A program made the position numbers and the translations under genes. Below, one piece after another: positions 23,786-29,700 of a stretch of DNA of 64,000 nucleotides. Every line of letters starts with the position of its first letter. Position 1 is the first letter of the stretch. Location: NCBI RefSeq assembly GCF_963678975.1, contig NC_089282.1, forward strand, positions 682,001 to 746,000, read 5' to 3'. The DNA is from Dysidea avara. Lineage: Eukaryota > Porifera > Demospongiae > Dictyoceratida > Dysideidae. A model generated the notes under the pieces. It was given only the letters and a program-made list of their open reading frames with translations. It was not told the origin of the DNA and did no database searches.

Positions 23786-26700
23786 ATGGAAGATTATTCC
23801 GACTCGTTTGATTTCTTGTTCAAGATAATTCTAGTTGGTGATGCAGGGGTGGGGAAGACGTGTATAGTTCAGAGGTTTAAGAATGGAATTTTCATCGAGC
23901 GGCAAGCGAACACCATTGGAGTGGACTTCACCCTCAAAACAATAATGGTGGACGGGAAGAAGATAAAGGTATGATGTAAATCCCGCATACTAGTGACCTC
24001 AATACAGTGGATACCTTATAACGGACACTTCAAAGAACTTATGACCCAGCTGTAATTCAGAGGTCTACTGTGACCTTACTTTAATTTGGAGAGTCAATAG
24101 TTGTTATGCTAGCTGTAGAGTTTGTATTTCTCATCTCATAGTGTCACTTAATGTGTAGCATACTATTACAGCAAGCCCTGCAGCAGGTGGTATTCTATTG
24201 AAACTTGCATTCACATAATGTCCAATCCTGAAAGTGATTTTATATTTATTCAAGAGCTTGGTAGTACCATAAGATATGTACTTCAATCTGTCCTTGTAAT
24301 ATAGTCAACAGGGTGAAGGGCACACAATTATCATGATCAATATATAATTTTATAGGGAATATGGTTTTACTATAAGAATAATCATTTTTAAATGCTTTTT
24401 CTCCTCTTTAATGACCATTTATACTACTACAGAGTGGTACCACTAGCTTGTAATAGGAGAGTACACCTCTCTATAACAAACACTTTGGGACCAGTGATTT
24501 TTGGCCTACCCTGTTGGACCAAAGTGTTGGTCCTTGGAGGTTGTCCTTGACTTGGAGAGCTTGTTACTGTATTTCTGTTAGGATTGTAAATTACAGTAAA
24601 ATAATTTCTGCTAATAATGTTTTCTGCTAATAATATTATTGCTGAGTAACTCAATTTAGCTGTTACCACTCCTTTTACATTGTGTTACAACATAGTTTAT
24701 CAGTTAGTTATCGATATGTACAACCTTTCGAGCAACATAAATTTTGCAGTTACTTGGCTGTCCACGAATTTTCATCCTTGACAATTATCATGATTGGCTC
24801 TTTACAGGTTATCTAATGAGTGATCCTCGAAAATGAAAATTGTTTATCCATGAAACTTACACACCTTGATAATTGTATGTGTAGTTCATAAACGTCCTGG
24901 TCATATTTATTATAGAAAATTTGTATTTTCTTGTATATTTTCAATAGATCAGGCATGGGTACCTAGTTTATGTGGTCGTTTAATAAATTTCTGTAACCGT
25001 TCATGGATCTTCTGTTGTCATTACTGTAAGTTTAGTTTCTCCTCAATGACACTATTTTGTACCACAAAATTCAAAGTACAGATTAAGTGGAACCCAAACA
25101 TCGCCTGATCCCCGTTGTCACTATTTTCTACATGATCCATTAGGCTTGTGTTTTCTGACATGTCACATTATGCTAATACGTACTCCAGATTAACTAGAGC
25201 TAGCTGCATCAGATTACAGACCAGTGTGGATATGAAAGATTTCACCAAAGCCGATAATATATTGTCACAAGTCTTAAGGTCTGACTTTCTCTCTGACAAT
25301 TTTATCCAGTTGTGTATACATTTCACCTGTGATTAAGCAATAACCCTTTGACCTAACCTACCCAGCTGTATATTAATATAGCCACAAATGGCTATATATG
25401 GGCTCTTAACAGGAAAGGTGTGTGTGTGTGGGGGGGGATATACAATAATTGGGAAATATGTCTAGTTCACTTGCTTATCAGCAATCCTATAGTGAGTGTT
25501 TCAGAGCTTTACAATGATGTTGCAATACACACAGACTGACACACAATACAACTTGAAGCGTGTTTTTAGTTTGTCATACTAAAAGTGATGTTAATATTAC
25601 TGCAATTGTTCTAACAAACTGTTATAGTGTTAGTGTATTAACTACTCCATACTAGGCCTCTCCTAAAAAAAATATATATATATATATATAACTTTACCAG
25701 CTCTGATACCATGCATTACTGTAGTGACCCCACTATGCTAGTATTAGCCAACTAAATACTGTCCATGGCTATACCCACTATCCATGTAATAACTAAGTTG
25801 TACATTGTAACATCTGTACACATTTCGTACACACCTTTTAGTTTCCATGTGCATCTGACTAGAGCACAAATGGTGTCTAGCTTAGCTAGTCTTGTGCCCA
25901 GACTCCACCCACTGTGTTGAGACACTACGGTTTTTCGGCCTGCCACCATAGTGTTATGCATTTGTATCCATGGTTCCAGTCAACCATCTTTGTCGTTCTT
26001 ACCTATCAAATCGCATTGTAGCTGAATTAAAGCATCTGATTGGCCAGAAAAGAAAAATGGCGTATGGCCCAAAACTCCAGCGTTTGTCACCAGACCCTAC
26101 TTAACGGTGGGGTGTGGCCACAAGACTATAGCTTAGCAAACCTTAGAAAAGAATCTAAATGTCACGATAAGAATGGTGGCATAAGTGTCAGTCTTGTTAC
26201 TGTGTTGTACATTTGCTTTCATTTGATCGTGTCTTAATGCCAGAGCTGGGAAGGTTGAACTGCTCCCAACTATTGCCATGTCCCTAGTACGTTCACTGTA
26301 ACATCTAGTAGTAGGTATTAACCTGTGATTGTAAGGGATGGTGATGGCTACTTGAGCAAGAAAGTGTAATACTGCTTGTATGTAGTATTAAGAGTTGATG
26401 TCAAGACTCTTGGTATCTTAATAGTTTGGGGATATTGTCATGATTGATGTCCTTCTGTTCATTTAAGTTTTTCTGATGAATTATTGTGTCCTGGTTAGTT
26501 GTTAGTGCTGTGGAGTGATACAGGATATGTTTACTTGCAATTGGTCGTTCATTGCAAATTTACCCCTCAAAAATAGTTTGTAGTGTTTGAATATGACATA
26601 ACTGGGTCAACCAAAAAATCAACAAAAAAAATCCCAACCCCTTTGGATTTTCATGAAATTTGGCATAGACATGGACTCTACTAAGAAACTTTCTCACACC

Positions 26701-29700
26701 AAAATTTGGCCCATTCTATTGATCTCCCTTTAAGATATGACAACTCCAAGTTTATTACAAAATACTACACTAGTTTAATAAAATGGCCATAACTTTGTCA
26801 GTGATTATCACAAAACCTTTCTGTTTAGATTTTTGGAATGTTTATTAAATTCTCTTTCAAGTGATATATAATTCATTATAATTACTCAAAGGAAAGGGTA
26901 AAACCACAAAAAATGTGACCTTTTCCTTTGATCTTACTTTTTTCAAAAAAGGATATTTCAATTACTTTCATTTTTTGTTCAAATATTCTTCTAATGCCCT
27001 TCTTTAAGTTTGAAGTTGGGATGGCAAGTAGATCGTGAGTTGTGGCTACATACGTAATTTTACATGTTACCAGGGATATAAGTATGAACACTATTATAAC
27101 AATGCAAACATTTGAATTAAATTATAGTATGGAATCTCATCAGAACGTGGCCAAGTTGCAATACACATACAGTTGGAGGCATAGTATAGAAGTGTCATAA
27201 GGTGATTAAACAGAAGTATCAATATTCTACATTTCTGAAGCCACACCAATATCCCCTATTGTTATGTATATCGATGCAGTTATGATAACAACATGATTTT
27301 GGTGCAAACACCATCAGGAGTCCATAATAGAGATTTTATGAACTCCTGATGCCATATAGTGGGAGGGTTTAGCAGCAAATTATCTTATGATACTATAAGG
27401 TTTGTAAGAGAAAGGTTAGACAGAATTGAGGAAACTTCACAATAGGCTTCTATTAAAATAATGAATTTGGAGGGTTTTGATTTGGTACAGTGACTGTATA
27501 GAAAGGCCACCATATAAGGGCCAACTATAAATTCTCCAAATGAGATACAGTATCTATACACTAATCCACCTGTCAAAAGCAGCCACCTGCCTGACTGTGA
27601 CCGGCCCAAAGTTTTGACCGGCTTAGATAGGTTCCAATGTAAATCATTCCTTATTCACCAAATTCTTCACCAAATATTTCTTCCACCAAACTTTTCTGTT
27701 ATTATGTAGTGTCTGCTGACATGGACAGATGTCCTACAGACTAAAAGAAAAGTTTAGCTGAAGAATTTGGTAAATAAGGAACGATTTACCCTCCAACTTC
27801 ATAATGTTAATGTGAAATTTCCACAATTTTGTCAAACCTTTCATAAGATAATTTGCTACTAAACCCTCCCATTATATGGCATCCGAGTTCATAAAACCTC
27901 TATTATGGACTCGTGATGGTGTTTACACCAAATCATGTTGTATTATAACTGCATCGATGTACATAGCAATAGGGGATATTGGTGTGGCTTCAGAAATATA
28001 GAATATTGATACTTCTGTTTAATCACCTTATGACACTTCTATACTATGCCTCCAACTGTATGTGTATTGCAACTTGGCCACGTTCTGATGAGATTCCATA
28101 CTATAATTTAATTCAAAAGTTTGTATTGTTATAATAGTGTTCATACTTATCCCCCCCCCCCCCCCCCCCCCCCCCGGTAACTTGTAAAATTACGTATGTA
28201 GCCACAACTCATGGTCTACTTGCCATCCCAATTTCAAACTTACTGTCATGAAAGAAGGGTATTAGAAGAATATTTGAATAAAAAATGAAAGTAATTGAAA
28301 TATCCTTTTTTGAAAAAAGTAAGATCAAAGGAAAAGGTCACATTTTTGTGGTTTTACCCTTCCTTTGAGTAATTATAATGAATTATATATCACTTGAAAG
28401 AGAATTTAATAAGCATTCCAAAAATCTAAACAGAAAGGTTGTTGTGATAATCACTGACAAAGTTATGGCCATTTTATTAAACTAGTGTAGTATTTTGTAA
28501 TAAACTTGGAGTGGTCATATCTTAAAGGGAGATCAATAGAATGGGCCAAATTTTGGTGTGAGAAAGTTTCTTAGTAGAGTCCATGTCTATGCCAAATTTC
28601 ATGAAAATCCAAAGGGGTTGGGATTTTTTTTTTTGTTGATTTGGTATGGAATGACCCAACTGAAGAATTGTCTGTTGTATGATCAGCATTGCACGGAGAT
28701 TCTCTTGATCTGGTTTTGACATTTTGCAAGTGAACTGAATCATTACCTCTGTGTGTGTGTGTGTGTGTGTGTGTGTTGTGTGTAGAATTGTAGACTTCCT
28801 GATGGAGCATTGTTAGGAAAACTCTTCATTCCATGGATCAGATGAATTGTTTGTGTAGACTTCATCACATTTCTGTGCCACATACCAACCACTGAATAAT
28901 CAATGAATTCTCAGTACTAGTTTAGTTCAGTGTGTGATGTACCATCAAGTATAACAGATTAATGTACAAATAAAGCATCTTTTAAGGGATGTGGGGTTAA
29001 AAAAATACCTACGTAATTTTAGAATTTGTACCAGAACAATATGGTAGGCAAATTTCTTGTAGTACTTACATGTACGTGTACCTACTTAAATATTACCTTT
29101 AACATATGCTATTATTGCTATTAAGATATTGTCATACTCCTCTGAAATGGACACGGTTTGTCAGCAATTTGTCCCACAAAGAGTCGGTCCACTGTGAGCT
29201 ATTATTATACAGTGAATACCTCTCTTAATAAACTCTCCAAATAAGGACACAATAGAAAACACCTCCTAATGATGATATTTTGGTCCCAACAGGTTTGGCT
29301 CCATACATGATCTCATGTTTGATAATTTGTGTTACTTGATGAGCCTGATCTCATGTTCATTGTTTAGTTACAAATATGGGATACGGCAGGACAGGAGAGA
29401 TTCCGGACTATCACACAAAGCTACTACCGCAGCACACATGGGGTAAGTATGAGTACAGTAAGATTTCCTGTAATTTTGCTGTTTACGATATGTATGCTTA
29501 TATCAATATTGTCACCATTCAGATAATTGAAGCAGTTTCTTGTCCTGAGTAACAACTTTGTGTGTTTGCTGGGGTATAAAATTACAGGGAAACCTGACTT
29601 CGCAGCCTTCTCTAACAGCTATACATATTCATGACTTCATTATAGTGACCATGTGAAGTAGGTCCCAAACATAGCTAAGGTGTACTTCATGACCTCATTA

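Follow-up and report, generated by a model that had tools for sequence, protein, structure and literature searches.

A long hairpin in a Rab43-like intron of the sponge Dysidea avara is a foldback-type, non-autonomous DNA transposon

The 64,000-nucleotide stretch of the Dysidea avara genome analysed here (the window; contig NC_089282.1 of assembly GCF_963678975.1, positions 682,001 to 746,000) contains a Rab43-like gene whose first coding intron carries a long hairpin, two arms lying head to head. The hairpin is a foldback-type, non-autonomous transposon with long terminal inverted repeats (TIRs), a kind of element already known, and we put at roughly 93% the fuller reading that it moves by cut and paste, was mobilised in trans, has had its arms homogenised, and is now a stranded copy. 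An earlier reading of the window made without database searches (the sequence-only reading) noticed the hairpin and spoke of a duplication; it missed that the arms are the TIRs of a dispersed DNA-transposon family with 4-bp target site duplications (TSDs). What appeared as an isolated hairpin becomes a genome-wide system, with hundreds of transposon ends and dozens of them in long hairpins.

Architecture of the hairpin

The transposon occupies positions 26604-28657 of the window (2,054 bp), as delimited by its ends, the left one placed by eye, and by the matching unit found elsewhere in the genome. Identical AACT TSDs flank it at 26600-26603 and 28658-28661, and the interval 26601-28661, in which the sequence-only reading had placed the head-to-head arms, corresponds to the element together with these TSDs. 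Self-comparison of the window, which that reading had proposed for fixing arm boundaries and identity, gave outer arms at 26604-27390 (787 bp, plus strand) and 27841-28657 (817 bp, minus strand); these are the TIRs, and by self-blastn they belong to the longest inverted repeat in the window. The right arm ends in GGGTCATTCCATACCAAATCAAC, read on the minus strand, and the left arm lacks six bases that the right arm carries after GGGTCA. The outer arms are identical at 755 of 782 ungapped columns (96.5%, 27 mismatches), and 19 of the 40 gapped columns fall at a run of exactly 25 C (28151-28175, plus strand), present in the right arm only, as had been noticed. Two analyses, one of them a scan at a score threshold of 150, reported no tandem repeats inside the arms.

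Towards the centre the pairing weakens. The inner left arm (27412-27475, plus strand) pairs with 27788-27840 at ~87% (27412-27441 with 27811-27840, and 27452-27475 with 27788-27811). A left-arm-only block follows at 27476-27638; it measures 163 nt, in agreement with the earlier estimate of about 160 bp. The innermost left stem (27639-27682, plus strand) then pairs at 87% with 27745-27789, which lies in the inner right arm (27745-27840, minus strand), across a central loop of 62 nt (27683-27744). With this weaker pairing included the arms reach ~1.08 kb on the left and 0.91 kb on the right, so that the description of near-perfect arms of about 1 kb holds for the outer 0.8 kb but not for the inner part.

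RNA folding of 26604-28661 predicted a minimum free energy (MFE) of -1394.9 kcal/mol, with 765 pairs between left and right arms and longest uninterrupted helices of 119 and 111 bp. Three mononucleotide shuffles gave -430 to -436 kcal/mol and three other stretches of the same length from the window gave -470 to -546 kcal/mol; because the MFE lies far below both sets, the hairpin is not a product of chance.

Assembly is difficult across long inverted repeats and homopolymers, and the 25-C run could have been read at the wrong length. That the two arms as such are an assembly artefact is nevertheless hardly credible, given the 27 mismatches and several insertions or deletions between them, the intact TSD, and the occurrence of the family on many contigs.

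A dispersed family with its own target site duplications

A search of the genome (550.8 Mb) with the left 1,000 bases of the element returned 85 matches, with the best 40 of 772 candidate places scored. Hand grouping of these matches gave at least 39 elements of the same plan, the window's included, and the other 38 were fetched; the copy-number search suggested for one arm thus finds a dispersed repeat. Both arms are approximately full length in 23 elements, and the spacer between them is matched in 38 of the 39 (weakly in L045, and without a match in L046). The terminus shared by the family, GGGTCATTCCATRCCAAATCAAC, has 426 exact matches in the genome, 210 in forward and 216 in reverse orientation, vs none for the same motif read backwards.

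We examined TSDs at 61 loci (the window copy and L009-L068). In 48 of them both ends could be recognised, the left end of the window copy by eye. A perfect 4-bp TSD flanks 44 of these 48 elements, and none is identical at 5 to 8 bases. In 1,000 shuffles of the partners the mean was 2.1 and the maximum 8, vs the 44 observed, and the count becomes 37 of 41 when two groups of segmental duplicates are each counted once. The first of these comprises five hairpin copies (L012, L016, L017, L024 and L032; G000:C7, ~18.71-18.75 Mb) lying ~7-9 kb apart; with an identical TSD and almost identical flanks, they represent a tandem segmental duplication that includes the element. The second comprises four near-identical copies that have their flanks in common and are spaced 48-65 kb from one another (L018, L020, L021 and L022; G000:C12, ~0.80-0.97 Mb).

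Two loci with widely spaced arms contain other sequences. The arms of L015 lie 4.6 kb apart, and the locus was considered as an autonomous copy and ruled out: the intervening sequence (L015:1787-6426) is a nested retroelement with an open frame of 1384 residues, Gypsy-like by the appearance of that frame. In L062 the same terminal repeats form an 8.5-kb pair, between which lies a PIF1-like helicase frame, probably of a nested mobile element.

These data bear on how the hairpin arose. A local inverted duplication within the intron, whether a palindromic duplication or a recent gene amplification, would account for the window's two arms being mutual closest relatives among 60 aligned arms (96.9% over the aligned columns). 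Yet copies elsewhere carry the arms together with the spacer and have 4-bp TSDs of their own, and the left-only block is shared across the family; the dispersed copies with their own TSDs rule out a local palindromic duplication, and we give this origin practically no weight. The block is present in 37 of the 39 copies, the window's included (the exceptions are L045 and L046), and the left-right asymmetry is therefore older than this insertion. Among the other 38 copies, none has a run of nine or more G or C within its own element sequence, those in L045 and L015 lying in the flank and in the nested insert, respectively, so the 25-C run is private to the window copy: it arose locally or reflects an error in sequencing its length. 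The proposal that events after duplication could be ordered therefore stands for the C run, as a local change, but not for the block, which predates the insertion.

The sequence-only reading had attributed the similarity of the arms to recent origin or gene conversion, and a comparison of arms within and between copies favours the second. Since the same plan is found in copies whose arms are only ~93% alike, a recent origin of the hairpin is not supported. We reduced the 23 elements with both arms measured to 17 by dropping near-identical duplicates; the copies had been chosen by similarity to the window's left part, which biases the set. Mean identity between the two arms of one copy is 95.3%, and between copies it is 93.9% for left-left, 92.7% for right-right and 93.1% for left-right pairs; the within-copy mean exceeded the values of all 300 random re-pairings. 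If elements were copied only as units, at equal rates, partner arms should on average not exceed the same-side identity between copies. Furthermore, the 17 elements hold 21 private variants common to both arms of a single copy, three of them in the window copy, vs ~0.3 expected from parallel change by a rough estimate. The pattern supports homogenisation of the arms by gene conversion, and long TIR arms may be kept alike within copies by occasional conversion or arm-templated repair. Homogenisation in natural long inverted repeats can in this family be measured across dozens of copies.

Coding relatives, mobility and classification

We hand-picked 20 motif-paired loci from contigs C1-C3, long pairs included, and their make-up is therefore no rate. 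Relative to the window element their arms are alike over stretches of ~130 to 960 bp at 75-90% identity, and the terminal inverted-repeat stretch is 437-753 bp in 17 of them (193 bp in L052, 72 bp in L063 and 301 bp in L064). Transposase sequence lies between such termini at four loci (L048, L049, L055 and L060); similarity to it was detected in none of the other 16, nor anywhere in the window, where a transposase remnant inside the element was also searched for and not found.

The L049 protein gave 94 matches in the genome, with the best 77 of 193 candidates scored; 12 of them fall within a frame of 785 residues, which is free of stops in 10. Two further loci were fetched. L067 (G000:C11:4051200-4057000) spans 4,066 bp and has TIRs of 654 bp that are 97.9% identical, a TATA TSD, an uninterrupted 785-residue frame, and first 12 bases that are the same as the family terminus. 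L068 is 4,248 bp long; its TIRs of 465 bp are 96.1% identical, and a single stop divides its frame. Searching with the L067 frame as DNA (best 40 of 190 candidates scored) gave 15 matches of full length, spread over 11 contigs and counting L067 itself, with identities that round to 100%; a further 25 matches reach 80-84% identity, and just one of these is not partial. The 15 full-length copies imply a recent spread of this lineage, and their near-identity makes it a candidate for present-day activity.

Searches with the transposases turned up no significant match in the collections used. For L067 Pfam offers no family at E up to 10, two pieces of L049 match none at E up to 1, and one piece of L055 and two of L068 give only scores below the curated cut-offs; NCBIfam, searched with the L049 pieces, returned sub-threshold scores or nothing. 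In the PDB, L049 has no match at E up to 10, and the best values for L067 (E 0.43) and for a four-sequence profile (E 0.69) are not significant. No relative was confirmed in viral contigs or plasmids (searched with L067) or in prokaryote genomes (searched with the profile). The residues invariant in four aligned pieces include D454 (DFSENYSF) and D540 (FSDG) of L067, and the two pieces that extend far enough carry a CDG motif downstream of D540. From the DFSEN, FSDG and CDG motifs we infer a DDD-type catalytic core.

We propose that the element inserted into the Rab43-like intron with duplication of 4 bp of target (AACT), and that it would have been mobilised as a unit, in trans, by the transposase of coding relatives that have the same termini, GGGTCATTCCAT; the trans step is suggested by the shared ends and the TSD. 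In this step the 785-residue protein, or close relatives of it, would bind or cut the GGGTCATTCC ends. The window copy now looks stranded, with six bases missing from its left terminus, a loss that may have made it immobile, with no transposase similarity, and with a private 25-C run.

Several observations weigh against this proposal. No perfect TSD flanks L027, L049, L063 and L064 (4 of 48), 13 of the 61 loci have no resolved pair of ends, and the window element's own left terminus departs from the family motif. The window element has no similarity to transposase, the coding loci closer to it in their TIRs (L048, L049, L055 and L060, ~75-79% over parts of the arms) have interrupted frames, and the intact L067 lineage and the window family have just the outermost bases in common, with no blastn match between them. 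Homogenisation is not universal, as 8 of 17 elements have an arm that is nearer another copy's same-side arm than its partner, and no transposition was observed.

The element has the anatomy of a foldback: the outer arms make up 787 and 817 of its 2,054 bp, and it has no transposase similarity. Like miniature inverted-repeat transposable elements (MITEs) it is non-autonomous, multi-copy and bounded by two TIRs; unlike them it is ~2 kb long with arms near 0.8 kb. The usual MITE is far shorter than an element of ~2 kb with 0.8-kb arms.

Very long TIRs that fill most of a non-coding element and leave a short middle are shared with the foldback-like transposons Galileo and Tetris (PMC4168063, PMC4079207). 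According to the account of Tetris, the TIR-220 repeats of Tetris group together in two of three complete elements, for which possible homogenisation is offered, and its TSD is 8-10 bp, with Mutator suggested, in contrast to 4 bp here; by its TSD length our element thus falls outside the Mutator-type foldbacks. Galileo is placed in the P superfamily by its transposase, and the L067 protein matched no Pfam family at E up to 10. A further difference is that no tandem repeats were reported inside the arms here.

Sola elements, as described in print (PMC10741241), have a DDD transposase, a 4-bp TSD, variable termini, TIRs of 11-1124 bp and lengths of mostly 2-9 kb. The present family resembles them in its 4-bp TSD (44 of 48), in the sizes of its TIRs and elements (787 and 817 bp for the window arms; 4,066 bp with 654-bp TIRs for L067), and in the putative DDD transposase of the related proteins read from the motifs above. 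A bivalve study puts the average length of Sola1 at 5,445 bp (PMC10294476), and for Sola2 of slime moulds the reported TSD is 4 bp, as here, but the TIRs are just 12-21 bp (PMC3627910). The family therefore fits a Sola-like anatomy, as compared with Sola by printed description only, and we do not assign it to Sola.

The Repbase rule for non-autonomous elements (PMC4455052) asks for an equal TSD length and for bases 1-11 that align with at most one mismatch. The window element and L067 both have a 4-bp TSD (AACT and TATA), and bases 1-11 of the window's right terminus, GGGTCATTCCA, equal those of L067, which would group the window family with L067 by that terminus; the same terminus is also common to most family copies examined, and the window's left terminus lacks the six bases after base 6. 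A text search of the literature with the first 11 terminal bases gave 38 papers, with no transposon paper among the 15 titles listed, and a search combining foldback, long TIRs and sponge returned no paper. We think it unlikely, as a whole, that these elements form an undescribed superfamily with long TIRs, a 4-bp TSD and a ~785-residue transposase without known domain, in which one lineage would be jumping today, while its non-coding relatives would keep their kilobase hairpins similar through conversion between the arms and would supply introns with strong double-stranded RNA (dsRNA).

Host gene, double-stranded RNA and neighbouring features

By eye from the sequence, the Rab43-like gene has three coding exons separated by GT-AG introns. 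Its first coding exon (23786-23968, plus strand) is followed by GT at 23969, and the first coding intron (23969-29367, plus strand, 5,399 bp, GT-AG) holds the element, so the placement in a first intron of a RAB gene was correct. The second coding exon (29368-29442, plus strand) encodes the WDTAGQE motif, and the last (30965-31351, plus strand) ends in CNC and a stop. The first and last exons, the two scanned with Pfam, both match Ras, and the best matches of the spliced 214-residue product are Rab43 chains (E 3e-65). Within the next RAB intron, window 30011-30266 contains short tandem duplications.

An unspliced transcript of this gene could fold into the long dsRNA that the sequence-only reading anticipated, with the predicted helices of 119 and 111 bp. 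The hairpin might accordingly be a selected dsRNA source, a hairpin small interfering RNA (siRNA) or editing locus that regulates the RAB gene. The stability of the predicted fold, with helices up to 119 bp, speaks for this, as does a survey of 22 holozoan species, a sponge and a ctenophore among them, which reports that repeats, and young ones above all, are the main targets of adenosine-to-inosine editing in almost all animals studied (PMC9989829). But the same hairpin unit stands at dozens of other places, so that nothing ties it to the RAB gene, and Rfam returned no match anywhere in the window at gathering scores. We therefore regard a selected dsRNA source as very improbable and retain the transposon reading, under which any dsRNA from the RAB intron would possibly be a side effect. 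If the copies are transcribed, they would serve as many internal replicates for asking when an intronic hairpin comes to be used as a substrate for siRNA production or editing.

Elsewhere in the window, a 356-residue reverse-transcriptase frame at 47987-49057 (Pfam RVT_1) marks a retrotransposon or a remnant of one. A 21-bp tandem repeat of 39 copies at 59107-59924 is open in several frames on both strands, and a second, shorter inverted repeat lies at 60053-60330 and 60610-60876 (278 columns, 87%).

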